DNA of 64,000 nt. Origin: Rheinheimera nanhaiensis E407-8. Lineage in GTDB: Bacteria > Pseudomonadota > Gammaproteobacteria > Enterobacterales > Alteromonadaceae. Shown one piece after another: positions 18,345 to 37,613 of the stretch. Every line of letters begins with the position of its first letter. Within the stretch, counting starts at the first letter, position 1. The position numbers were made by a program, and so were the translations under genes. The stretch lies in NCBI RefSeq assembly GCF_000296695.1, contig NZ_BAFK01000002.1, forward strand, positions 62,001 through 126,000, written 5' to 3'. The notes beneath the pieces were generated by a model. It was not told where the DNA came from. It made no database searches and worked only from the letters and a program-made list of their open reading frames with translations.

Positions 18345-19313
18345 CTATTTTCCGTCAAATGCCGTAAGCTGGCTCAATATTAGTTTGGTTGTATCGAATA
18401 GTGATTCTGGTGAAGGTAGAACTTCACCTACAACCATTTTCTTAAAATCACCATGATAGGTGACCTCAAGTTGCCCCCAAATAGATTCAAGATCGTAAAA
18501 TACAATGGCTTGTGCCAGCGGTTGATCGAACCAAGGCACTGAAGTAAAAGTGCGTCGATCACTTTCAATCACTCTAATTGCCATATCTGTAAAGCCATTT
18601 GATAGTAAAAATTTCTTCGTAAATTCATCATTTATCAGAAAATGGATATCGTACAAATGACGAATTTTATTGTTTATGTTATTGATATGATTGTCACCAT
18701 AGGAGGCTTTAATCATTCCCATGATTTTTTCACAGAGCGTTCTGGAGGTGCATAGAACATTCATTTCAAAAGGTTCAAGTGAGTATTGAGCAATTACCTC
18801 TTGGCGACCAGTAGATATAAGAAAATCAGCTACATAACTAGAGATCTGCATCATTCTATGAGGTTCAGGATCAGCGAATGCGTTGACCTCAAGTAACAGA
18901 CTGTTGGTAATTTGGCCTTGTGGTTCAACTGTCTCATCTAGCCTAGGATACTGGAAACGAATCTTGCGGAAATGTGAGTTTTTCGTTGTATCAGGTGATT
19001 CAATTTCTTCAAAACATTCTGGCAATATAGTACAAGCTTTTTTGACTTGTCTTCTAACTTGATTTGTAGATAAAGAGTCAGTAAAAACAGCAATATCAAC
19101 GTCTTCGGAGAATCGAGAGATCAAGCCATACGCTTTGCTTAACGACGTGCCGCCTTTAAAAACAATATTTTTGCTAATATCAGAGTTGGCCAATGCTTTA
19201 AGAGCGAGAGTTACCCAGTAATCCTTTTCCACATACGTCATCGGTAAAGAAAGATGTTGCGCAGTAGCACGGATAGCCTCTTCGAAAATCCCTCTATCGT
19301 TATGTAATTCCAC
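18345..19313 (-). CDS. abiEii: AbiEii/AbiGii-family nucleotidyltransferase toxin
   Basis: This 322-residue toxin half of an AbiE-type system belongs to the DNA polymerase beta-like nucleotidyltransferase family. AbiEii proteins act as GTP- or tRNA-directed nucleotidyltransferases and abort phage infection. Motifs seen: V-E-K-D-Y-W-V (28-34), the nucleotide-binding G-G-T-S-L-S-K (54-60), the catalytic pair D71/D73 in F-S-E-D-V-D, and L-L-L-E-V-N-A-F-A-D-P further on. All are intact. It lies 15 bases downstream of the antitoxin gene. The pair is visibly richer in A+T than the flanking genes, suggesting horizontal acquisition. Confidence 0.88.
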   Translation of the reverse strand: MELHNDRGIFEEAIRATAQHLSLPMTYVEKDYWVTLALKALANSDISKNIVFKGGTSLSKAYGLISRFSEDVDIAVFTDSLSTNQVRRQVKKACTILPECFEEIESPDTTKNSHFRKIRFQYPRLDETVEPQGQITNSLLLEVNAFADPEPHRMMQISSYVADFLISTGRQEVIAQYSLEPFEMNVLCTSRTLCEKIMGMIKASYGDNHINNINNKIRHLYDIHFLINDEFTKKFLLSNGFTDMAIRVIESDRRTFTSVPWFDQPLAQAIVFYDLESIWGQLEVTYHGDFKKMVVGEVLPSPESLFDTTKLILSQLTAFDGK

Positions 19314-19328
19314 TAATTTACCTTTATT

Positions 19329-20069
19329 CTATTTGCTAAATATAAGATGCCAGTGCTTTTTAGCATTTGGCATTTTATATGAATAGGAAAAGTAATATGT
19401 GGACGTCGGGTTTAATGACCTATATAGCTTTTCACTAAAATGATGTAAATAATGCTCTAGAAATGTGCCAAGTAACGCTTTTGTTCTTTCGGAATATGCT
19501 TCTGTGGCGATGCCTTCCATCTCTTCTATTGAAGATTGAGAAAATTGTTTCAATTTTAAACTCAACTTACTAGAAACGTCGTCTACATTGGCATCAGGAA
19601 TTCGTTCGATGTTATTCAACACATCTAAAAATTGCAGTAACTCTATATTGCTACTAGTAACACCCTTGTATCGAGCAGGAATAGTAGTTATACGTAACCC
19701 TGAAAGATTTGCTTTTTCCTGTTTTGATGTTGCTGTAGCAACGGTTACTTCCGCAGGAACTTGAGTGGTTAATCCCCAACGATAATAGAGAGCAGGTCCT
19801 GTGACATAACCAACAGTACGACTTTCACGCTTGGTGAAATATTGGATGACTTCACTTTCCTTAGGAGCCATTGGCCCAAACCGACCAACTTCAGCCTTAT
19901 AGAAAAGCCCTTTTTTAACTTTGATTAATCCAAGCTTACTGACATTGCGATTTACAGCTTTAACTACCGCATCGCTATGTTCTGCATACACATCAAGATC
20001 CTGATAAGAAAACAACTTACCCGGTTTGATATGTTCGATTTCTTTATAAACGGATTTTGCAATAGTCAT
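19329..20069 (-). CDS. AbiEi-type antitoxin / DUF6088 protein
   Basis: This 246-residue partner of the AbiEii toxin has an N-terminal winged helix (about 1-60: F-S-Y-Q-D-L-D ... V-K-A-V-N-R-N-V-S-K-L-G-L-I-K-V-K-K-G-L-F-Y) of the kind that lets AbiEi proteins repress their own promoter. The body (about 75-150: Y-V-T-G-P-A-L-Y-Y-R-W-G-L-T-T-Q, then R-I-T-T-I-P-A-R) matches DUF6088. ATG 20069 is supported by GGAG six bases upstream. The promoter and a palindrome between its -35 and -10 elements lie just upstream, giving a self-consistent autoregulated operon. Confidence 0.82.
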   Translation of the reverse strand: MTIAKSVYKEIEHIKPGKLFSYQDLDVYAEHSDAVVKAVNRNVSKLGLIKVKKGLFYKAEVGRFGPMAPKESEVIQYFTKRESRTVGYVTGPALYYRWGLTTQVPAEVTVATATSKQEKANLSGLRITTIPARYKGVTSSNIELLQFLDVLNNIERIPDANVDDVSSKLSLKLKQFSQSSIEEMEGIATEAYSERTKALLGTFLEHYLHHFSEKLYRSLNPTSTYYFSYSYKMPNAKKHWHLIFSK

Positions 20070-25893: not shown

Positions 25894-26295
25894 TCAAGCA
25901 ATGATAGCGGTTACCCGTATTTCGATACGCATCTCTGGCAACCCTAAAGATTCCACGCCCAGCTGTGTCCATATCGGCGCATGGTTAGGCATGTAGTGGC
26001 GATAGAGTTTAGTCATGGTTACATTCACTATTGGCGGGAAGCCACCGACATGATAGGAGTTAACGTGTACAACGTGCTGCCAACTCGCACCGGCAGTGGC
26101 CAGTGTACGCTCCACATTGTGGAATGCCTGAGCGATTTCTTCTTCAACCGAGGCTGGTATCTTTAAATCATCATCCCAGCCGCCCTGGCCTGAGGTTTCT
26201 ACACGATTGCCGATTTTTAAGGCTTGCGAGTAATGTAAAGCTTTCAGCATGGTTTCGCCGTAGCCAGGGGTGACTAATAATGTTGGTTTTTCCAT
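25894..26295 (-). CDS. RidA-family protein (1)
   Basis: In this 133-residue protein of the RidA/YjgF/UK114 family, members hydrolyse reactive enamine or imine intermediates or act in degradation pathways. The segments S-G-Q-G-G-W-D, V-E-R-T-L-A-T-A-G-A-S-W-Q-H-V-V and the C-terminal E-I-R-V-T-A-I are characteristic. The Arg that binds the substrate carboxylate in true RidA (R105 in E. coli) appears to be represented in the M-R-I-E-I-R segment, but alignment by eye is uncertain. It lies 43 bases behind a second RidA paralogue and is probably in the same transcript. Confidence 0.88.
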   Translation of the reverse strand: MEKPTLLVTPGYGETMLKALHYSQALKIGNRVETSGQGGWDDDLKIPASVEEEIAQAFHNVERTLATAGASWQHVVHVNSYHVGGFPPIVNVTMTKLYRHYMPNHAPIWTQLGVESLGLPEMRIEIRVTAIIA

Positions 26296-26338
26296 GGTAT
26301 TTCTCCGTTAGTTGCTTAATTTGGCAGGTTTACAATGC

Positions 26339-26737
26339 TCAATTTTTTGTGGGAATACGTGCGATAACTTTGATTTCGAAATCAAAGCCGGACAGCCAGG
26401 TTACGCCAACTGCAGTCCAGTTTGGGTAGGGGGCCGACGGAAACATCTTTTGTTTTACCGCCATAATTGTATCGAACTGGTGTTGAGGATCGGTATGGAA
26501 TGTTGTGACATCGACAATATCATTGAGCGTGCACCCTGCAGCACTTAGCGTGGCTTGCAGGTTAGCAAACGCCAATTCAACCTGGCGTTTAAAGTCGGGC
26601 TCTGGCTTGCCATCGGGCAGGCTGCCTACTTGCCCTGAGACAAATAGCAAATCGCCGGATTTAATAGCGGCTGAGTAAGCATGTTGCTCGTAAAGAGCAT
26701 GTCTGCCCTCAGGAGTGATGATTTCACGTTTAGTCAT
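26339..26737 (-). CDS. RidA-family protein (2)
   Basis: This is a 132-residue RidA-family protein with V-S-G-Q-V-G, L-Q-A-T-L-S-A-A-G-C-T-L-N-D-I-V-D-V and F-E-I-K-V-I-A near the end. ATG 26737 is chosen because GAGG lies seven bases upstream; an in-frame start at 26755 lacks one. It is the first gene of a two-RidA unit, divergent from a TetR regulator with repeated palindromes between them. Having two different RidA paralogues in one unit suggests a catabolic or detoxifying role for one specific imine rather than housekeeping. Confidence 0.88.
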   Translation of the reverse strand: MTKREIITPEGRHALYEQHAYSAAIKSGDLLFVSGQVGSLPDGKPEPDFKRQVELAFANLQATLSAAGCTLNDIVDVTTFHTDPQHQFDTIMAVKQKMFPSAPYPNWTAVGVTWLSGFDFEIKVIARIPTKN

Positions 26738-26774
26738 TTTGAAACCTCGGTACATTGATATTTGCAGACTGTGC

Positions 26775-26868
26775 TATGCGCCGTGCATAAAAATAATTTA
26801 ATATACACGCCGTATGTATGGTATTTCACATTCGTGTCGTATGTCAATTTAATTTATACGTGTCGTAT
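26775..26868. promoter_or_regulatory. Cluster of palindromic TetR-type operators
   Basis: Related palindromes fill the gap between the RidA unit and the TetR gene: TATGC-N5-GCATA (26775-26789), ATAC-N5-GTAT (26803-26815), ATTCG-TGT-CGTAT (26830-26842) and ATACG-TGT-CGTAT (26856-26868). The last two are extended by an identical GTCAA. They are placed to control both divergent promoters. Confidence 0.6.
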
Positions 26869-26885
26869 GTCAAAGTGGGGTTACG

Positions 26886-27476
26886 ATGAATCAACGTTTG
26901 AAAACTATGGCTGAGAACCGGGCAAAGCTGATCTTAGCCGCTCGAAAAGCTTTTGCAGAAAAAGGCTATGCAGCCTCATCAATGGATGATTTAACCGCCG
27001 ATGTTGGCTTGACACGCGGTGCGCTTTATCACAACTTCGGCGACAAACGTGGATTGTTGGCGGCAGTTGTTGAGCAAATTGATTCAGAAATGGCGGCTCA
27101 TGCTAAAAAAGCCCGGGCAAAGGCGGGTGATGGTTGGCAGGGGCTTCTGGCTGAAGGTGTAGCTTATATCGAGCTTGCTCTTGACCCTGAGGTACAGCGC
27201 ATAGTGCTGCTGGATGGCCCGGCAGTTTTGGGCGATCCATCACAGTGGCCAAGTCAGAGTAGTTGTCTGGAGTCAACAAAGCTGATTGTTGAAAGGTTAA
27301 TTGCTGAGGGAACATTAAAACAAATTGATGCTGAAGCTGCGGCGCGTTTGCTCAATGGTGCGGCGCTTAACGCCGCATTGTGGGTTGCAGCAAGTGCAGC
27401 CCCGCAGGACGTGCTACCAAAAGCTGTTGCAGCGTTTTCTGCACTGGCGACGGGGCTGCTGAAAGCGCCTGCTTGA
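26886..27476 (+). CDS. TetR-family transcriptional repressor
   Basis: In this 196-residue protein the N-terminal TetR helix-turn-helix (about 10-60) reads A-R-K-A-F-A-E-K-G-Y-A-A-S-S-M-D-D-L-T, then G-L-T-R-G-A-L-Y-H-N-F-G-D-K-R, with every position expected for a functional DNA-binding domain. The C-terminal ligand-binding part is Ala-rich and specific to this regulator. It is divergent from the RidA unit, and the palindromes between are the natural operators. The inducer is unknown; a substrate or product of the RidA proteins is the simplest guess. Confidence 0.9.
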   Translation: MNQRLKTMAENRAKLILAARKAFAEKGYAASSMDDLTADVGLTRGALYHNFGDKRGLLAAVVEQIDSEMAAHAKKARAKAGDGWQGLLAEGVAYIELALDPEVQRIVLLDGPAVLGDPSQWPSQSSCLESTKLIVERLIAEGTLKQIDAEAAARLLNGAALNAALWVAASAAPQDVLPKAVAAFSALATGLLKAPA

Positions 27477-29484: not shown

Positions 29485-30225
29485 TCAGAACTCTTGCTTA
29501 GTCGGACGCAGCACAATTTCATTGATATCGACATCGGCCGGTTGCTCAATGGCAAATGCAATGGCGCGTGCCACTGAACTGGCCGGAATAGCGTCTTTGT
29601 AAAAATTCAACACGGTTTCAGCGGCAGTGCCGGAAGTGCTGTATTTAAGATCGCTGTCAACTGCACCAGGCTGAATAGAGGTGACGCGGATTTTCTCGCC
29701 GACTTCCTGCCGTAACCCGTCAGAGATGGCCCGAACTGCAAACTTGGTACCCGAATATACAGTGCCGCCGGGTGCGAAAACCTTGATACCGGCTACTGAA
29801 CTCAGGTTAATAATATGGCCACTCTCTTGTGCAATGAAGCGCGGCAGCACGGCGGCGATGCCATACAATGTGCCTTTAAGGTTTACATCGATCATTGCAT
29901 CCCACTCGTCGGTATTGACTTCGGCCATGGGGCGGATCGGCATCAAGCCGGCGTTATTGATCAGAACGTCAATCTTGCCAAAATCAGCAACCACAGCGGC
30001 CACAGTCGCCTCTACCTGCGCTTTGTTTGTTACGTCAAGCTCATAGGCCCGGCCAGTACCACCACTGGCGTTAATATCGTTAACCACTTCATCAAGTTTA
30101 GTTTTACGGCGGGCGGCTACAGCCACTTTTGCGCCGCGGGAAGCAAGAAAGCGTGCAGTTTCAGCGCCCAGGCCAGTGCTGCCGCCGGTGATCAGGATAA
30201 CTTTGTTTTCAATACCGTTGCTCAT
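29485..30225 (-). CDS. Classical short-chain dehydrogenase/reductase
   Basis: In this 246-residue SDR the cofactor loop T-G-G-S-T-G-L-G is near residues 14-21. N-N-A-G is near 90, and the catalytic Ser and Y-S-G-T-K sit near 140-160 (I-N-L-S-S-V-A-G ... V-Y-S-G-T-K), all intact. The motif set fits NADP(H)-dependent oxidation or reduction of an alcohol/carbonyl; the substrate is unknown. It lies downstream of the DJ-1 gene in the same direction with a 124-base gap that shows no shared operator, so it may be read through from upstream or have its own promoter. Confidence 0.88.
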   Translation of the reverse strand: MSNGIENKVILITGGSTGLGAETARFLASRGAKVAVAARRKTKLDEVVNDINASGGTGRAYELDVTNKAQVEATVAAVVADFGKIDVLINNAGLMPIRPMAEVNTDEWDAMIDVNLKGTLYGIAAVLPRFIAQESGHIINLSSVAGIKVFAPGGTVYSGTKFAVRAISDGLRQEVGEKIRVTSIQPGAVDSDLKYSTSGTAAETVLNFYKDAIPASSVARAIAFAIEQPADVDINEIVLRPTKQEF

Positions 30226-30349: not shown

Positions 30350-31039
30350 TTATTTCGTGCTATTACTTAACTGTGCGATTAACGCCTCAGCGGCAGGTGC
30401 TGATGATGCCGGGTTCTGACCAGTGATTAACAGGCCATCGCTAACAACATAAGGAGCCCAATCTTCGCCCTTCAGGAAGATGCCGCCTTTGGCGGTAAAG
30501 TCATCTTCAATCAGAAATGGCACCACGTCAGTTAAGCCGACAGCCGCTTCTTCACTGTTGGTAAATCCGGTGACTTTTTTACCTTCAACCAGCGGACGGC
30601 CATCAGCTGTCCTGACGTGGCGCAGCACGCCAGGTGCATGACATACCAGAGCAACGGGTTTAGCCGCAGCAAAGAAAGACTGGATCAACGCAATTGAGTG
30701 TTTGTCTTCAGCCAGATCCCACAGCGGGCCGTGCCCACCCGGATAGAATACTGTGTCGAAGTCAGCCTGTGACACGCTGTCCAGGCGCACGGTGCTGGCA
30801 AGTTGTGCCTGAGCATCAGCATCAGCTTCAAAACGACGGGTCAGTTCGGTCTGAAAGGCCGGCTCGTTACTTTTGGGATCAAGTGGCGGCTGGCCACCTT
30901 TAGGTGATGCTAATACGATCTCGGCTCCGGCATCTTTGAAGGTATAGTAGGGAGCAGCCAGCTCTTCAAGCCAAAAGCCTGTTTTGCGGCCGGTATTACC
31001 CAGTTGGTCGTGTGAAGTTAAAACCATTAATACTTTCAT
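30350..31039 (-). CDS. DJ-1/PfpI-family protein (type 1 glutamine amidotransferase-like)
   Basis: In this 229-residue protein of the DJ-1/PfpI superfamily the nucleophile elbow is A-L-V-C-H-A-P-G-V-L (Cys at about 136), the acidic partner lies in the early A-S-P-K-G-G segment, and F-Y-P-G-G-H-G-P-L-W-D precedes it. Related proteins (HchA/Hsp31, YhbO and plant GLX3-like) remove methylglyoxal or repair glycated groups. A copy of the regulator palindrome (31080-31093) lies about 40 bases upstream of the start over the likely promoter, tying it to the NemR-like regulon. Confidence 0.85.
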   Translation of the reverse strand: MKVLMVLTSHDQLGNTGRKTGFWLEELAAPYYTFKDAGAEIVLASPKGGQPPLDPKSNEPAFQTELTRRFEADADAQAQLASTVRLDSVSQADFDTVFYPGGHGPLWDLAEDKHSIALIQSFFAAAKPVALVCHAPGVLRHVRTADGRPLVEGKKVTGFTNSEEAAVGLTDVVPFLIEDDFTAKGGIFLKGEDWAPYVVSDGLLITGQNPASSAPAAEALIAQLSNSTK

Positions 31040-31079: not shown

Positions 31080-31093
31080 TAGACCGGTCGTAT
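31080..31093. promoter_or_regulatory. NemR-like operator upstream of the DJ-1 gene
   Basis: TAGACCGGTCGTAT, a copy of the TAGAC-NN-GTCGTCTA palindrome with a mismatch in the last positions. On the minus strand it abuts a TAATAT/TATAAA-like -10 region, so binding would block the promoter of the 31039 gene. Confidence 0.6.
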
Positions 31094-31150
31094 TTTGATT
31101 TGATTCAAAAAAACACTTCAAACGAAGTGATTTTTAAAACCTTTCCCCGG

Positions 31151-31732
31151 TCAGGTGGAAAGGTTAAGAACCTGGCGAGTTGTCCGCATGGCCGTCTCAA
31201 AAGGTTGCTTGGTGCGTACAATTTTCACCATCACACTAGCGCCAAGCCATAACTGATACAGGCTTTGTGCTGTGCTATAGGGATCACCGTCGATTGAAAG
31301 TGAACCTTCTTTCATACCTGTTTCAATAGCCCGCGCCAAACGCTCGATAATTCCGGCGGTGCCGCGTTTGAGCGCCAATCGCATTGCTTCTGATAAGTCT
31401 GCGACTTCTGCGCCTAGTTTGACCGCAAGGCATTTGCCCTGACAGTCGAAGGAAACCTGGTTATCTTGCCAGTCCTGCCAATAATTCATCAGGCGTTCTG
31501 CCATTGTCTGCGCAGGCTGATTGAGTGTCCGGTCAAGCTCGGCAAGATACTCCTCAAAATAGCTTTCCAGCATCGCTTCTCCGAACGCTTCCTTTGAACC
31601 AAAGTAATGGTAAAAAGAGCCTTTCGGCACGCCAGCCGTCGCCAGTATTTCATTTAAACCAACACCCGAGAAACCTTTGCCAGCGATAATACGTTGGCCT
31701 GTAGCAAGGATGTTTTCACGTACATCAGACAT
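31151..31732 (-). CDS. nemR: NemR-like TetR-family electrophile/HOCl-responsive repressor
   Basis: This 193-residue TetR regulator reads like E. coli NemR through most of its length: G-V-P-K-G-S-F-Y-H-Y-F-G-S-K-E-A-F-G in the helix-turn-helix and A-V-K-L-G-A-E-V-A-D-L-S-E-A-M-R in the core. C101 and K170 fall at the positions of NemR C106 and K175 (both shifted by five), the pair known to sense bleach and electrophiles through a reversible Cys-Lys bond. It should repress genes carrying the TAGAC-NN-GTCGTCTA palindrome, including its own (31778-31792). Context is a nemA-like ene-reductase and other detoxification genes. Confidence 0.85.
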   Translation of the reverse strand: MSDVRENILATGQRIIAGKGFSGVGLNEILATAGVPKGSFYHYFGSKEAFGEAMLESYFEEYLAELDRTLNQPAQTMAERLMNYWQDWQDNQVSFDCQGKCLAVKLGAEVADLSEAMRLALKRGTAGIIERLARAIETGMKEGSLSIDGDPYSTAQSLYQLWLGASVMVKIVRTKQPFETAMRTTRQVLNLST

Positions 31733-31777
31733 GTTGTGTGTAGCTCCAGCGTTAATGTGCGTTACTTTAACTCAAAA

Positions 31778-31792
31778 TAGACAAGTCGTCTA
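31778..31792. promoter_or_regulatory. NemR-like operator upstream of the nemR-like gene
   Basis: TAGACAAGTCGTCTA with TAGAC and GTCTA arms, 45 bases upstream of the regulator start (31732). Its position between the MFS gene stop and the regulator gene indicates autoregulation and a separate promoter for the regulator. Confidence 0.7.
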
Positions 31793-31846
31793 GTAATTGT
31801 TTTAAATAATTTTAACGTCCTGCACAGGCTTAGTTCTATCTGTACT

Positions 31847-33085
31847 TTAGGGTGAAATCAGTACCTTATTATTGCGGTTAGGTTTAAGAAAAGGTGTAAC
31901 GAGCAACATTACCGCACCTATAACTACCAGCACCCACAACGATAGATGAAAACTGTCGCCCAGGTCCCGTAAAAATCCAACTAACAAAGGCCCTACGGCG
32001 GCCACTATATAACTGGGTAGCATAACAAAAGCACTCCAGGCACCCGCTTCCTCCGGAGTAGAGGCATTATCCAGCGGCAGCGTCATCGCGAGGGTGAAAG
32101 CACCGCCTGTGCCAAATGCCGCCAGCGGAACCCATAACATGGGTAAGGTGTTAGGTGCCACGGCTATAGCGAGGCTGCCCAGCAGAGCAATACCGGCACT
32201 TACAGCCAAAACTATACGCCGATCTTCGTTTCGGCTGATAAAGCCAAACAGTGGCGTGGCCACCATAAAGCCCAGGGTATAGCCTGCTAAAATCATGCCC
32301 GCTGCGGTTGGTGTGTTACCAAGTTCTATATATATCGGCGCAAGCCAGGCGATCATGGCGTAAAACACCAAATTGTTACAAGCAAAAAACAGCGCAATCA
32401 GCCAGGCAGTCGGGTTACGTAAAGGCAGACGAGGTGCCACAGACAAGGCTCCGGATGCACGTTTCTGACGCCCGTTACGCTCAATAAACAGCCAGGCACC
32501 GATAGCTAACGCAACGGGTAGCACCCAGAATCCGGCAGCCCAACGCCAATTTTCCGCAGCTTCAGCCAAAGGGCCGGTAGAGGCCGCTGCCAGGGTGCTG
32601 CCCAGTGCTATGGATGTTGTATAAAGTCCCATAAATATAGCAACTTTGGTCGGAAAACGGGCTTTGACATAACCGGATAGCAAAGTGCCGGCGATAGCAA
32701 TACCGGCTCCTACGCCGGCAGTTGCGAAGAACAACTGTCCGATTGATCCGACTAAGGTTCTCAAGCCAATCGAAGCGCCCAGCACGAGCAGTGCGGCCAG
32801 AATGACACGGTCGCGACCAAAGCGATGAGCGAGCCAGGGCGCGGGTATAGCCAAAGCTCCCATCAGCAAGGTCGGGATACTGGTTAAAAGCGCGGCTTGA
32901 ATATAGCTTAACCCCAGCTCCTGTATGATTGCCGGTAGTAAGGGGCCAATAGAGACAATACCCGGGCGCAGCGTTAGCGCCACCAGTACAATACATAAAA
33001 CGGCTATTGCAATAGATGGTCCCTTGGCTTCTTCAAGCAATGGGTTTACCGCCGTTTGGGGTAAGGTTTTGCACTGCACTAACAT
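31847..33085 (-). CDS. MFS transporter of the CynX/NimT type
   Basis: In this 412-residue protein twelve hydrophobic segments span most of the length, with L-R-P-G-I-V-S-I-G-P-L-L in the first helix, a hallmark of the CynX-like (cyanate / nitroimidazole) branch. It should be an inner-membrane exporter or importer of a small molecule. ATG 33085 is supported by GGAG eight bases upstream; the longer frame starting at 33133 lacks a site. It follows the ene-reductase gene (stop at 33173) in the same direction, suggesting co-transcription. The transported compound is not known. Confidence 0.85.
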   Translation of the reverse strand: MLVQCKTLPQTAVNPLLEEAKGPSIAIAVLCIVLVALTLRPGIVSIGPLLPAIIQELGLSYIQAALLTSIPTLLMGALAIPAPWLAHRFGRDRVILAALLVLGASIGLRTLVGSIGQLFFATAGVGAGIAIAGTLLSGYVKARFPTKVAIFMGLYTTSIALGSTLAAASTGPLAEAAENWRWAAGFWVLPVALAIGAWLFIERNGRQKRASGALSVAPRLPLRNPTAWLIALFFACNNLVFYAMIAWLAPIYIELGNTPTAAGMILAGYTLGFMVATPLFGFISRNEDRRIVLAVSAGIALLGSLAIAVAPNTLPMLWVPLAAFGTGGAFTLAMTLPLDNASTPEEAGAWSAFVMLPSYIVAAVGPLLVGFLRDLGDSFHLSLWVLVVIGAVMLLVTPFLKPNRNNKVLISP

Positions 33086-33172
33086 ACTCAAATCTCCAAT
33101 CAGTTGTGTGCGACACCGGCGTCGCGCTTTCAATTGCCATTGATAAAGCGCGGTTATGCCCGGTGGCTTGTG

Positions 33173-34297
33173 TTAGTCACGATACGCCGGGTAATCGGTA
33201 AGCCCTTGCTCAGCACCACCATAAACAGTGGCGGGATCGACAGAATTCAACGGCCAACCATTGGCTATTCTTGTCGGCAAGTCCGGATTGGCGATAAAGG
33301 GGCGGCCAAAGGCCACGAGATCGCCCAGCCCGGAGTCAATCAAGCGCTCTGCGCGCTCTGCGGTATAACGACCGGCGTAGATAATGCAGCCACTGAACGT
33401 CTGACGAACCGCACGGCGAAAGGATTCAGGCAGGTCCGGTGCGTTGTCCCAGTCGGCTTCGGCAATGGATAAGTAAGCTACGCCGGCGGCTTCCAATACC
33501 TTGATCGCTTCGACGTATGTGGTATGCGGGTCTTCTTCAACCAAGCCAATGTAAACCCGGTCCTGCTCTGTACTGGTAAACAGCGGTGTGAAACGTACCC
33601 CCAGACGATCAGCGCCAACGGCGTCCGCTACGGCAGCGACTATCTCGCGCAAAAAGCGCAAACGGTTATGCAGCGAGCCGCCATATTCGTCATCACGCTG
33701 GTTGGCGTGGGCCGAGATAAACTGATTAACCAGATAGCCGTTAGCGGCATGAATTTCTACCCCGTCGAAACCGGCTGCAATCGCATTGCGGGCGGCCTGA
33801 GCATACTGCGCGACCAACTGCTGGATCTCTGTTACGCTAAGCGCACGCGGCACCGGTGGCTGAACCAGTTCGCCAGTGCCCGGGCCGGTTTGGATAAAGG
33901 CTTTGACTTTCTGAGCCTGGATGGCCGAAGGTGCTACCGGAGCTTCGCCGCCGGGTTGCAGCTCGTTGTGTGAAACGCGTCCGACATGCCATAGCTGGGC
34001 AAAAATAACGCCGCCTTCGGCATGTACTGCCTCTGTCACTTTACGCCAGCCGTCAATTTGCGCCTGAGTGTAAATACCGGGCGTCCAGGCATAGCCTTGG
34101 CCACGCGGCTCGATTTGGGTGCCTTCGCTAACCATAAAGCCGGCGCTGGCGCGTTGACGGTAATAAGTGGCCATCAGTTCGGTGGCAATATCGCCCGGCT
34201 GAGCGCTGCGTTGCCTTGTAAGAGGCGGCAGCACGATACGATTTTTTAACGTGTGGCGCCCCAGGTTAATTGAGGTAAAAAGCTTTTGGTGTTTCAT
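33173..34297 (-). CDS. nemA: Alkene reductase / N-ethylmaleimide reductase, Old Yellow Enzyme family
   Basis: In this 374-residue FMN-dependent flavoprotein that reduces activated C=C bonds, nitro groups and maleimides with NADPH, motifs visible are L-K-N-R-I-V-L-P-P-L-T-R near residue 20 and Q-L-W-H-V-G-R. The substrate-binding H-A-A-N-G-Y-L pair (His/Asn) appears near residue 185, followed by R-D-D-E-Y-G-G. The C-terminal F-G-R-P-F-I-A-N-P-D-L-P closes the FMN phosphate site. Length and motifs match E. coli NemA, and the NemR-like regulator nearby supports that name. It is downstream of the aldehyde dehydrogenase by about 100 bases. Confidence 0.88.
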   Translation of the reverse strand: MKHQKLFTSINLGRHTLKNRIVLPPLTRQRSAQPGDIATELMATYYRQRASAGFMVSEGTQIEPRGQGYAWTPGIYTQAQIDGWRKVTEAVHAEGGVIFAQLWHVGRVSHNELQPGGEAPVAPSAIQAQKVKAFIQTGPGTGELVQPPVPRALSVTEIQQLVAQYAQAARNAIAAGFDGVEIHAANGYLVNQFISAHANQRDDEYGGSLHNRLRFLREIVAAVADAVGADRLGVRFTPLFTSTEQDRVYIGLVEEDPHTTYVEAIKVLEAAGVAYLSIAEADWDNAPDLPESFRRAVRQTFSGCIIYAGRYTAERAERLIDSGLGDLVAFGRPFIANPDLPTRIANGWPLNSVDPATVYGGAEQGLTDYPAYRD

Positions 34298-34356
34298 GTT
34301 CTGTGTCCTATCTATATTGAGTGTGTTAGCTAACCGTTGGGTGCGCGAACGGGAAA

Positions 34357-34380
34357 AGCGGATACACAGAGGTATCCGCT
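34357..34380 (-). terminator. Strong hairpin between aldehyde dehydrogenase and ene-reductase genes
   Basis: Perfect 9-bp stem AGCGGATAC / GTATCCGCT with a 6-base loop. On the minus strand it is followed by TTTT CCC, so it could act as a weak terminator or attenuator that lowers expression of the downstream genes relative to the dehydrogenase. Confidence 0.5.
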
Positions 34381-34395
34381 ACGTCATACCAATGA

Positions 34396-35856
34396 TCAGA
34401 ATGATTTTTTGATCAACAGGGTTTTGGGATTGGTAAACAACAGGCGTCCTTCATGGCCTTGCTCTGTGCCAATACCTGACTGCTTGTGACCACCGAAAGG
34501 AATATCCACGCCCTGGGTATGGATTTCGTTCACCCATACCATGCCTGCTTCTACCCGATTCGCGACGGCAACCGCGGCCTTGGTATCACGCCCCCAAACC
34601 GAGCCGCCTAAGCCGTAGATAGAGGCGTTGGCACGATTCACAGCGTCGTCGATATCGTCATAAACGATAATTGGGATGATAGGACCGAATTGCTCTTCCT
34701 GAACGATTTTGCTGTGCTCTGGCGGGTTGTCGACAACGGTGATCGGGAAGAAGTAGCCAGACTGCGTTTCGTCAATATCACCACCAAATGCAATCTTCTG
34801 ACCGTTTGCCTTGATGTCGTCAAGGAAGGTTTTTAGCTTGTCAAACTGCATCTGGTTTTGCACTGGCCCCAGACCAACTTCCGGATCAAGACCGTCGCCA
34901 ACTTTCACTGTTTTGGCGTAGTCAACGAAAGCAGCTACGAAATCGGCATGGAATGAGCGGTGGATGTAAAGCCGCTTAATACCCACACACCACTGGCCCT
35001 GGTTACCAAAGGCGCCCCAGAAAAGCTGTGGGATAATGGCTTTGTAGTCTGCATCTGGCAGGACTATTGCTGCATCGTTGCCGCCAAGTTCCAGGGTTAC
35101 GCGCTTAACGGTTCCGGCCGCCGAACGCAGCACGTGCTTGCCGGTTTCTGTTGAACCGGTGAAGCTAATCTTGGCAATATCCGGGTGGTTAGTCATCTGT
35201 GGGCCTAAGTGATCACCACCAGATACGACAGACAGGACACCGGCAGGAAGTACGCTTTGTGCTATCTGACCAAAACGCAAAGCCGTTAACGGCGTATATG
35301 GCGTGGGTTTAAGTACAAAGGTGTTACCGGTGATCAGGGCAGGTGCCACTTTCCACAGGGCAAGCAGCACGGGGAAATTCCAGGGTGTGATGCCACCTAC
35401 AACGCCAAGCGGAACATGGTGCAGCTCAACGACATGCGAGTCGTTTTCTTCAACAATTTCAACCGGAATACGACGAGCCGCAATCTGGCGGATATAGGAG
35501 ATAGCCTGATCGACTTCTGGCGCAGCCATGCTATTAAGTGGTTTGCCTTGCTCTAAGGTTAACAGGCGAACCAGCTCATCGCGGTGTTGCTGTAATGCGT
35601 CAGCATAGCGATCCAAATAGACCTGACGCTCGTCATAGCTGATGGCTGACCACGTTTTAAATGCCGTTTTGGCCGCAGTGATGGCTGCTTCAAGTTGTTC
35701 GGCTGAGGCTGCTGGTGCTTTAGCAAACACCTTGCCGGTTGCCGGGTTGATTACATCAAAACTGTCTTTGGCCTCTACCAGCTTGCCAGCGATGCTCAGA
35801 TAGTAGGGACCATCGAAAATACTGACACTGTGTGATGTTTGTGCTGCTGTGGACAT
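34396..35856 (-). CDS. Aldehyde dehydrogenase family protein
   Basis: In this 486-residue NAD(P)-dependent dehydrogenase the N-terminal cofactor domain contains P-W-N-F-P, the catalytic Glu is in V-T-L-E-L-G-G-N-D and the catalytic Cys is in N-Q-G-Q-W-C-V-G-I. All are intact. The usual N-x-G-Q-x-C motif is present with an aromatic W before the Cys. ATG 35856 is chosen because AGGAG sits seven bases upstream and the sequence after it matches the family start; the frame extends upstream to 35982 without support. Two copies of the regulator palindrome lie about 165-205 bases upstream, so it heads the electrophile-response unit. Confidence 0.9.
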   Translation of the reverse strand: MSTAAQTSHSVSIFDGPYYLSIAGKLVEAKDSFDVINPATGKVFAKAPAASAEQLEAAITAAKTAFKTWSAISYDERQVYLDRYADALQQHRDELVRLLTLEQGKPLNSMAAPEVDQAISYIRQIAARRIPVEIVEENDSHVVELHHVPLGVVGGITPWNFPVLLALWKVAPALITGNTFVLKPTPYTPLTALRFGQIAQSVLPAGVLSVVSGGDHLGPQMTNHPDIAKISFTGSTETGKHVLRSAAGTVKRVTLELGGNDAAIVLPDADYKAIIPQLFWGAFGNQGQWCVGIKRLYIHRSFHADFVAAFVDYAKTVKVGDGLDPEVGLGPVQNQMQFDKLKTFLDDIKANGQKIAFGGDIDETQSGYFFPITVVDNPPEHSKIVQEEQFGPIIPIIVYDDIDDAVNRANASIYGLGGSVWGRDTKAAVAVANRVEAGMVWVNEIHTQGVDIPFGGHKQSGIGTEQGHEGRLLFTNPKTLLIKKSF

Positions 35857-36020
35857 AAATATACTCCTGATTATAGCGTTTTCCGTTTGGTAGCTATCTT
35901 CATTGGTAGCCACCTGGCGGGTGATAGGTGTTAACAGCGCCCGACATTGGGCTTGCCTGCGACGGACAGCGCTTCTGGACACATGCAGGGAAACGGGGAA
36001 TGTTTTGCATTGCGCTAGAA

Positions 36021-36060
36021 TAGACCAGTCGTCTTGGTGTCATCTTAGACCGGTCGTCTA
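36021..36060. promoter_or_regulatory. Tandem NemR-like operators upstream of the aldehyde dehydrogenase
   Basis: TAGACCAGTCGTCTT (36021-36035) and TAGACCGGTCGTCTA (36046-36060), centres 25 bases apart. The first covers a TATTCT-like -10 on the minus strand. These are the best copies of the shared palindrome and suggest cooperative repression. Confidence 0.7.
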
Positions 36061-36797: not shown

Positions 36798-37613
36798 CTA
36801 TTGCTGTTGCAACCACTCTCTGGGGCTGGCGCCGGTTTTACGCCTGAACGCCCGCGCCAGCGCGGATGGGCTTTCGTAGCCCACTTCATCGGCAATCAGC
36901 GCTATAGGCCGGCCTTCGCGCAAGCGTTTTTGCGTCAGGCTAACACGCCAGCTTAGCAGGTAGTCGGCCGGGGTTTTACCTACCACTTTATGAAACTGCG
37001 CCGCAAAACTGGCGCGCGACATACTGGCGGCGCTGGCTAATTCTGCCACCGACCAGGGCCTGGCGGGTTGATCGTGCATTAGCGTAACCGCGCGGGCCAA
37101 GCGTAAATCGGCCAGCCCGGCCATCATACCGGATGACAAGCTGCTACTGGCCATGATATGGCGCAGCAGCTGGATCATCACCAGCTCAAACAGCCGGTTT
37201 AACACCGCGTTTTTACCGCAGTTTTGCTCAGCGGCTTCGCTGAATAACCACAATAGGCTGTCGCCCAAAATGGGTAACTCACTAACCGGCAGCAGCATAT
37301 AGTCAGGTAAGGCGGTGGTTAACGGATTATCCAGGCCGCCGTCGAAACTTAGCGCCGCACTGACCAACTGGGTATTGTCTGTCGCTACCGCACTTAGCTG
37401 GTGTTTACAGGGCCTGGGAATAAACAGCAGGCTGGGCTGGCTAATCACAATCTCCTGTTTGGCGATATGCAACCGGGCCTTACCGCTATTAAACAAATGC
37501 AGCTTGCCGCTGTGCTCCCGGGTGTCAAAGGCCAGCTCACCACTAAAAGTGCCGGCATAAAAAGTTGTAGCGTGCATGCCAAACTGCGCCAGTAAGGTTG
37601 AAAGCCGGTCCAT
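36798..37613 (-). CDS. AraC-family transcriptional regulator with cupin sensor domain
   Basis: In this 271-residue protein the first ~165 residues match the AraC-binding cupin type (cupin_6: F-N-S-G-K-A-R-L-H-I ... F-I-P-R-P-C-K-H). The C-terminal two-helix-turn-helix domain (about 175-270) contains S-M-S-R-A-S-F-A-A-Q-F-H-K-V-V-G-K-T-P and E-V-G-Y-E-S-P-S-A-L-A-R-A-F-R-R-K-T-G. ATG 37613 is chosen for the GAGG five bases upstream; the frame continues to 37664. It is divergent from a secreted alpha/beta-hydrolase gene and is its probable regulator. Confidence 0.88.
   Translation of the reverse strand: MDRLSTLLAQFGMHATTFYAGTFSGELAFDTREHSGKLHLFNSGKARLHIAKQEIVISQPSLLFIPRPCKHQLSAVATDNTQLVSAALSFDGGLDNPLTTALPDYMLLPVSELPILGDSLLWLFSEAAEQNCGKNAVLNRLFELVMIQLLRHIMASSSLSSGMMAGLADLRLARAVTLMHDQPARPWSVAELASAASMSRASFAAQFHKVVGKTPADYLLSWRVSLTQKRLREGRPIALIADEVGYESPSALARAFRRKTGASPREWLQQQ

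Follow-up and report, generated by a model that had tools for sequence, protein, structure and literature searches.

Does the TetR-family gene in a detoxification cluster of Rheinheimera nanhaiensis E407-8 control its own surroundings, and what kind of regulator does it encode? The cluster lies on the minus strand of a 64,000-nucleotide stretch of contig NZ_BAFK01000002.1, which is referred to here, at its full length, as the window. An initial annotation had described a local NemR-like regulon marked by four copies of one palindrome. We consider it highly probable that the TetR repressor regulates the cluster locally. The fuller reading, a self-contained regulon with a stress-responsive switch, is probable as a whole. 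One of its parts, the sensing of hypochlorous acid (HOCl) or electrophiles through cysteine 101 (C101), is by analogy with relatives only somewhat better than an even chance. The core genes are as follows.

34396..35856, minus strand: aldehyde dehydrogenase (ALDH), at the head of the ALDH-OYE-MFS unit; PF00171, 523 bits; expected motifs present, with C290 and E256
33173..34297, minus strand: old yellow enzyme (OYE), a NemA-like ene-reductase; HAANGY motif at 183
31847..33085, minus strand: major facilitator superfamily (MFS) transporter, CynX/NimT-like; PF07690; TIGR00896 at 257 bits, under the cut-off of 406
31151..31732, minus strand: TetR-family repressor with TetR_N and TetR_C_13 domains, C101 and K170; assigned by domains, PDB relatives, alignment and tree
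30350..31039, minus strand: DJ-1/PfpI protein, by sequence of the Hsp31/glyoxalase III-like branch; PF01965, 53 bits; C133 in CHAP

Four operator-like sites precede these genes. Their mismatches are counted against the TAGAC...GTCTA pattern of the initial annotation.

36046..36060, minus strand: operator-like site, ALDH promoter, distal; TAGACCGGTCGTCTA (minus strand TAGACGACCGGTCTA); 0 mismatches
36021..36035, minus strand: operator-like site, ALDH promoter, proximal; TAGACCAGTCGTCTT (minus strand AAGACGACTGGTCTA); 1 mismatch
31778..31792, minus strand: operator-like site, regulator promoter; TAGACAAGTCGTCTA (minus strand TAGACGACTTGTCTA); 0 mismatches
31080..31094, minus strand: operator-like site, DJ-1 promoter, degenerate; TAGACCGGTCGTATT (minus strand AATACGACCGGTCTA); 2 mismatches

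All four annotated copies are thus present ahead of the DJ-1 gene, the regulator and (twice) the ALDH gene; two match exactly, a third nearly so and the fourth less well. The ALDH-promoter sites form a tandem pair 25 bp apart, a spacing repeated in two other loci (L035 and L188).

The 5061-bp cluster contains three matches at one mismatch or fewer, compared with a mean of 0.003 and a largest count of 1 in 300 shuffles. Over the window as a whole there are four such matches (mean 0.075 and largest 3 in 40 shuffles), and 13 at up to three mismatches, against 5.94 in shuffles. A chance repeat was rejected because of this excess. The fourth of the close matches in the window, 19571-19585, lies inside a DUF6088 gene adjoining an AbiEii-like gene. 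A genome-wide palindrome scan, which the initial annotation had proposed, found two exact copies in the 4.0-Mb genome, both in the cluster, and two one-mismatch matches, of which the cluster holds one. Once 2 or 3 mismatches were allowed, there was no enrichment over a reversed control pattern (18+11 vs 71+58 at 2 mismatches), so the evidence consists of local clustering and promoter position. A genome-wide regulon was a further candidate that we rejected. Six off-cluster near matches, namely three with 2 mismatches and three further ones, were inspected (L134, L135, L008, L005, L144, L139), and all fall within open reading frames (ORFs).

The palindromes could conceivably be accidental or belong to another regulator, given that a second TetR gene (at 26886) and an AraC-type gene (at 36798) lie nearby and that looser matches are not enriched in the genome. 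We find this barely credible. It is opposed by the local excess and by the conservation and genome association described below. In addition, homologues of the neighbouring TetR and AraC-type genes occur in only 1 and 3, respectively, of 90 loci in a neighbour table, which includes ten hand-picked extra loci.

Conservation of the site and its spacer

We compared 80 loci encoding relatives of the regulator, which are the best 80 of at least 588 confirmed matches in a scan of species genomes. They represent close relatives and include near-duplicates (several Burkholderia and Streptomyces). Within 200 bp 5′ of the TetR gene, 73 loci (59 from Proteobacteria and 14 from Actinobacteria) carry the 15-bp site without a mismatch and 3 carry it with one. 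All but one of the exact sites (72) share the same orientation. When spacers of 0-12 were tried ahead of the TetR gene, exact matches appeared at 5 only, with the consensus TAGAC-GACYR-GTCTA. Judged by these comparisons, the site is shared by two phyla, and distant bacteria have both it and the gene set. The proposal of a local regulon is strengthened accordingly: next to relatives of the regulator the site keeps its position, and the Cys/Lys pair is conserved.

The site is also associated with the regulator across genomes. Among 369 genomes of the class, with the regulator counted as present at E<=1e-45, the exact site occurs in 4/4 genomes that have the regulator, versus 11/365 that lack it (Fisher p 1.8e-6). 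In eight of these 11 genomes, a less closely related TetR homologue is located at the site. At L126, L127 and L128, a search based on an ORF caller found no TetR homologue at the site. An exact match to the real pattern is found in 15 genomes of the class, versus 8 for the reversed control, by our reading of the table.

Some loci depart from this picture and weigh against the regulon reading. Four of the 80 have no site ahead of the TetR gene: L052 retains TAGACGACCGGTC without the final half-site, in L098 the site lies before a DJ-1 gene that is itself upstream of the TetR gene, L109 has one after the TetR gene and L113 has none. Same-strand gaps of <500 bp between TetR and DJ-1 genes lack the site in 11 of 49 cases. 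In addition, the DJ-1 site is equally degenerate, with 2 mismatches, in the sister species R. oceanensis, and three of 30 Pseudomonadaceae loci discussed below (L172, L173, L176) have no site anywhere we looked.

These observations raise the question of whether the DJ-1 gene belongs to the regulon. The regulator might control only itself and the ALDH-OYE-MFS unit, while the DJ-1 gene is independent and its site is decaying. The two mismatches in both Rheinheimera would fit this explanation, as would a hairpin ahead of the DJ-1 gene.

31114..31129, minus strand: terminator-like hairpin between the TetR and DJ-1 genes; terminator scan, with 8 such hairpins vs 6.9 in shuffles, weak alone

A similar hairpin and T-run are visible after the TetR gene in L035 and L188. 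With such a hairpin, the DJ-1 gene would be a separate unit needing its own site. However, 38 of the 49 gaps do contain the site at one mismatch or fewer, L188 has an exact copy ahead of its DJ-1 gene, and the inner GACCGGTCTA of the DJ-1 site is retained by both Rheinheimera. An independent DJ-1 gene is, in our judgement, improbable, and we favour its inclusion in the regulon.

The spacer distinguishes the window from NemR of E. coli. The E. coli nemR site, TAGACCGACTGGTCTA, is 16 bp long, with a 6-bp spacer. We examined 24 NemR loci (49-96% identical to E. coli NemR) from one family in the same order, which was taken as Enterobacteriaceae. The nemR promoter site is 16 bp in all 24, exact in 23 and with one mismatch in 1. 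By contrast, the other six loci of that family set, the window among them, have 15 bp, so that the window lacks the 16-bp TAGAC-N6-GTCTA form of E. coli-type NemR. Of the 24 NemR loci, 21 (in the range L195-L217) have an extra 15-bp site, at one mismatch or fewer, within 300 bp after nemR. There is no 15-bp site in that interval in L194, L211, L214 or E. coli K-12 (L115). Among 30 loci from Pseudomonadaceae, 20 have a 15-bp upstream site at one mismatch or fewer and 7 more have one downstream only; the 16-bp form is in none of the 30. These family searches used 30 loci from 34 matches in one case and 30 from 69 in another.

We tentatively propose, at slightly less than even confidence, that an operator code TAGAC-(n)GACYR-GTCTA is common to a thiol-switch TetR branch in Proteobacteria and Actinobacteria. 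Its usual, perhaps ancestral, partner would be a DJ-1/Hsp31-type glyoxalase III-like gene, and spacer length, giving sites of 15 or 16 bp, would be a means of tuning inside single regulons. The asymmetric conserved middle of the site and its constant orientation may reflect two overlapping dyads or a promoter element inside the operator. A candidate for the latter overlaps the site ahead of the regulator.

31764..31769, minus strand: candidate -10 element TAAAGT, lying 17 bp downstream of a candidate -35 element TAGACG (31787-31792) within the regulator-promoter site

The T and A columns of the candidate -10 are each 0.78 conserved in the 59 proteobacterial rows, and the TAGACG/TAAAGT pair could be the -35 and -10 elements of the regulator promoter. 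A general promoter scan did not report the pair (scan total 4 vs 4.8 in shuffles).

Composition and spread of the module

The DJ-1, OYE and ALDH proteins retain their signature residues. The nearest PDB relatives of the DJ-1 protein are 1u9c and 4p5p, followed by glyoxalase III (4lru) and Hsp31. It has the family domain and a Cys-His pair at the nucleophile turn, as expected of the Hsp31/glyoxalase III branch of DJ-1/PfpI proteins, and the homologues we examined conserve CHAP (63/63) and GFWLEE (62/63). The OYE passes the cut-off of the N-ethylmaleimide reductase subfamily model (412 bits vs 403). The ALDH reaches no NCBIfam equivalog cut-off among the 25 families listed. For the MFS transporter, we chose the ATG at 33085 as the start, while the longest ORF begins with TTG at 33133. 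Substrates of the OYE, DJ-1, ALDH and MFS proteins are presumed from their homologues.

The minus-strand gene order is ALDH, OYE, MFS, TetR, DJ-1, SDR and NmrA-like, where the last two genes lie beyond the region initially annotated.

29485..30225, minus strand: short-chain dehydrogenase (SDR), probable co-member 3′ of the DJ-1 gene; PF00106, 190 bits
28745..29398, minus strand: NAD(P)-binding NmrA-like protein, which may also belong to the module; PF13460, 115 bits

Homologues of the SDR adjoin the module in other loci (89% identity in L188, where it is next to the DJ-1 gene, 85% in L040 and 82% in L049), and homologues of the NmrA-like protein occur in 5/90 loci (74% in L131). The module thus probably extends past the DJ-1 gene to the SDR, and perhaps to the NmrA-like gene.

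According to the initial annotation, an ALDH, an MFS transporter and a DJ-1 protein had been added to a usual nemRA core. The neighbour counts reverse this relationship. A DJ-1 homologue (>100 bits) is the usual partner, present in 64/80 loci and within 400 bp of the TetR gene in 51, and a nemA-like OYE (at least 60% identity) is an extra found in 9. An ALDH at >=60% occurs in 2 loci and an MFS transporter at >=40% in 2, and R. oceanensis alone among the 80 has all four partners. Counts are from tblastn, as a greedy ORF caller chose wrong-strand ORFs in GC-rich loci. Two arrangements from Pseudomonadaceae resemble that of the window. L188 has the same ALDH-OYE-MFS-TetR-DJ-1 order, with proteins 73-85% identical, a 25-bp tandem pair (one site exact, the other with a mismatch) and exact sites before both the TetR and DJ-1 genes. 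L190 has TetR-DJ-1-ALDH-OYE-MFS behind a single site.

The same regulator occurs at 99% identity in R. oceanensis GL-53. A search of 30 congeners found one genome (G002) with the regulator at 99% and two with a 54% relative. Because relatives at 77-81% occur in Vreelandella, Cupriavidus and Mesorhizobium, and others lie on plasmids (350 records, 325 of them below 60% identity), horizontal spread is likely. Among the rows listed, a regulator relative of ~41-43% occurs on 218 Acinetobacter plasmid records (e.g., H40-H53). Separately, L091 and L094 are near-identical regulator loci although one is recorded as Yersinia alsatica and the other as an uncultured Glaciecola. Their likeness suggests a recent transfer or a mixed record.

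Two neighbouring regions of the window also deserve mention. At 25894-27476, two RidA-like genes adjoin the divergent second TetR gene (TetR_C_41), with a weak match (3 mismatches), TATACGTGTCGTATG, between them at 26855. In L036 and L099, the regulator likewise has a RidA2 homologue nearby. At 18345-20069, an AbiEii-like nucleotidyltransferase gene has the DUF6088 gene upstream, and the two probably form a type IV toxin-antitoxin or abortive-infection pair.

The regulator and its proposed switch

The regulator has two domains above their cut-offs (PF00440, 48.5 bits; PF16925, 55.2 bits), which places it in the TetR_C_13 group, to which relatives of NemR, CurR and AcuR belong. Its best PDB relatives are 3rd3 (217 bits) and 4l62 (216 bits), followed by NemR (4yze, 166 bits). 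We take 3rd3 and 4l62 to be PA2196 (CurR); the search labels 3rd3 as a probable transcriptional regulator. The identity is 56% to the PA2196/CurR chain and 42% to NemR. The CurR-curA system of P. aeruginosa is therefore the nearest characterised relative known to us. CurR has the same Cys/Lys pair, and an exact copy of the 15-bp site likewise lies upstream of its 90% homologue L157. We nonetheless rejected membership in the CurR group, because the operator is common to both but the cut-off of the CurR model NF058643 was missed (261 bits vs 300, the best among the families listed). The partner genes also differ. Among 13 window proteins around the regulator and two more at 18-20 kb, Pfam named none as a curcumin reductase, the product of the curA gene next to that of CurR, although CurA itself was not searched for. 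In a quick tree of 129 rows (L032 and L130 left out; SH-aLRT support only), the window protein belongs to a 92-row clade (SH-aLRT 95) that contains neither PA2196 nor NemR.

The initial annotation called the regulator NemR-like, with C101 and K170 matching the Cys/Lys pair of E. coli NemR. Both residues stand where it placed them and correspond in the alignment to C106 and K175 of NemR. The OYE in the regulon and the TAGAC/GTCTA half-sites are further likenesses to the nemR-nemA-gloA system. Other features depart from NemR. The protein is nearer to the CurR chain, falls outside both groups in the tree and has Ile and Ala at the positions of NemR C21 and C116. Across the 80 loci, Cys occurs at the C21 position in 0 and at the C116 position in 1. 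The E. coli promoter site is 16 bp, and nemR of E. coli K-12, unlike the window gene, has no DJ-1, ALDH or MFS gene alongside. We rejected NemR orthology as unsupported by identity, tree, cysteines and spacer. On present alignments, the regulator is best named a DJ-1-associated relative of NemR and CurR, not a nemRA regulator.

More distant systems offer partial parallels. AcuR of Rhodobacter sphaeroides has an operator, TAATAGAC-n6-GTCTATTA, that overlaps the promoter and was proven by mutation (PMC3017554). AcuR is a related TetR protein whose half-sites are common to the window sites. However, it controls an acrylate/dimethylsulfoniopropionate catabolism operon, its spacer is 6 bp, and the window protein scores 126 bits with the AcuR model NF051457, under the cut-off of 247. 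AltR of Pantoea ananatis is a NemR-related TetR protein with one key cysteine, Cys100, that controls a thiol-stress cluster; thiosulfinates induced it, but none of the other oxidisers used in that study did (PMC13178969). Its operator, CAATCTAC-N6-GTAGATTG, is unlike the window sites. DitR and CssR also bind other sequences.

What would the regulator sense? NemR senses HOCl through a bond between Cys106 and Lys175 (PMC8748444, PMC7464077), and by analogy C101 is the likely sensor. C101, K105 and K170 are present in 80/80 loci, and C97 in 47/80. Since the C101/K170 pair also occurs in the CurR and NemR rows, it is a trait of the group and does not single out chlorine sensing. Two points count against such sensing: the absence of the C21 and C116 equivalents, and a P. 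aeruginosa NemR homologue, PA14_36300, for which one study found no consistent HOCl phenotype and no induction by HOCl or hypothiocyanous acid (PMC7950407). The same study cites another that saw induction.

A different inducer could act on the same local regulon, namely a small ligand that binds reversibly in the C-terminal pocket and may be an aldehyde, an aromatic compound or an unsaturated acid. C101/K170 would then be kept for structure or ligand contact and would not serve as a chlorine switch. AcuR, a more distant relative, is induced by acrylate (PMC3017554), and the TetR_C_13-like similarity is common to it, at a score under the cut-off. Moreover, Cys101 is in 7/7 of the listed rows that are not close relatives while K170 is Arg in two of them, which means that the cysteine is kept without the pair. 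Nevertheless, Lys170 accompanies Cys101 in 80/80 close loci, and the characterised nearest relatives (NemR and, going by a title, CurR) answer thiol-reactive agents. A ligand-based inducer is unlikely on balance, though less so than an independent DJ-1 gene, and we retain the thiol switch.

Under the thiol-switch reading, the TetR repressor would bind the predicted 15-bp TAGAC-GACYR-GTCTA sites of three promoters. One is its own, another would drive ALDH-OYE-MFS (the tandem pair), and the third would drive DJ-1 together with the SDR gene and perhaps the NmrA-like gene. By homology, the bound dimer would block RNA polymerase there, and so transcription. Reactive chlorine or electrophile stress would modify C101, with K170 close by as in NemR. 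The repressor would then be released, and the ene-reductase, ALDH, Hsp31/glyoxalase III-like protein, SDR and exporter would be made together. Its action would be local, on about six detoxification genes.

Our literature search, made in listings of papers, found no recognised account of this motif for these regulators or of this module; AcuR was nearest. A 2024 paper on CurR (Gene 927:148754) reportedly concerns sensing of sodium hypochlorite and N-ethylmaleimide, going by its title. The window system appears to be a new variant among known NemR/CurR-type stress switches, conserved more widely than the initial annotation could see. What was a guess at a single locus becomes a motif that can be tested and from which targets can be predicted for many uncharacterised regulators of two phyla. 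The spacer difference that sets the E. coli nemR promoter apart from related ones is now open to simple binding assays. Finally, the module would tie DJ-1/Hsp31-like proteins to NemR-like stress sensing.

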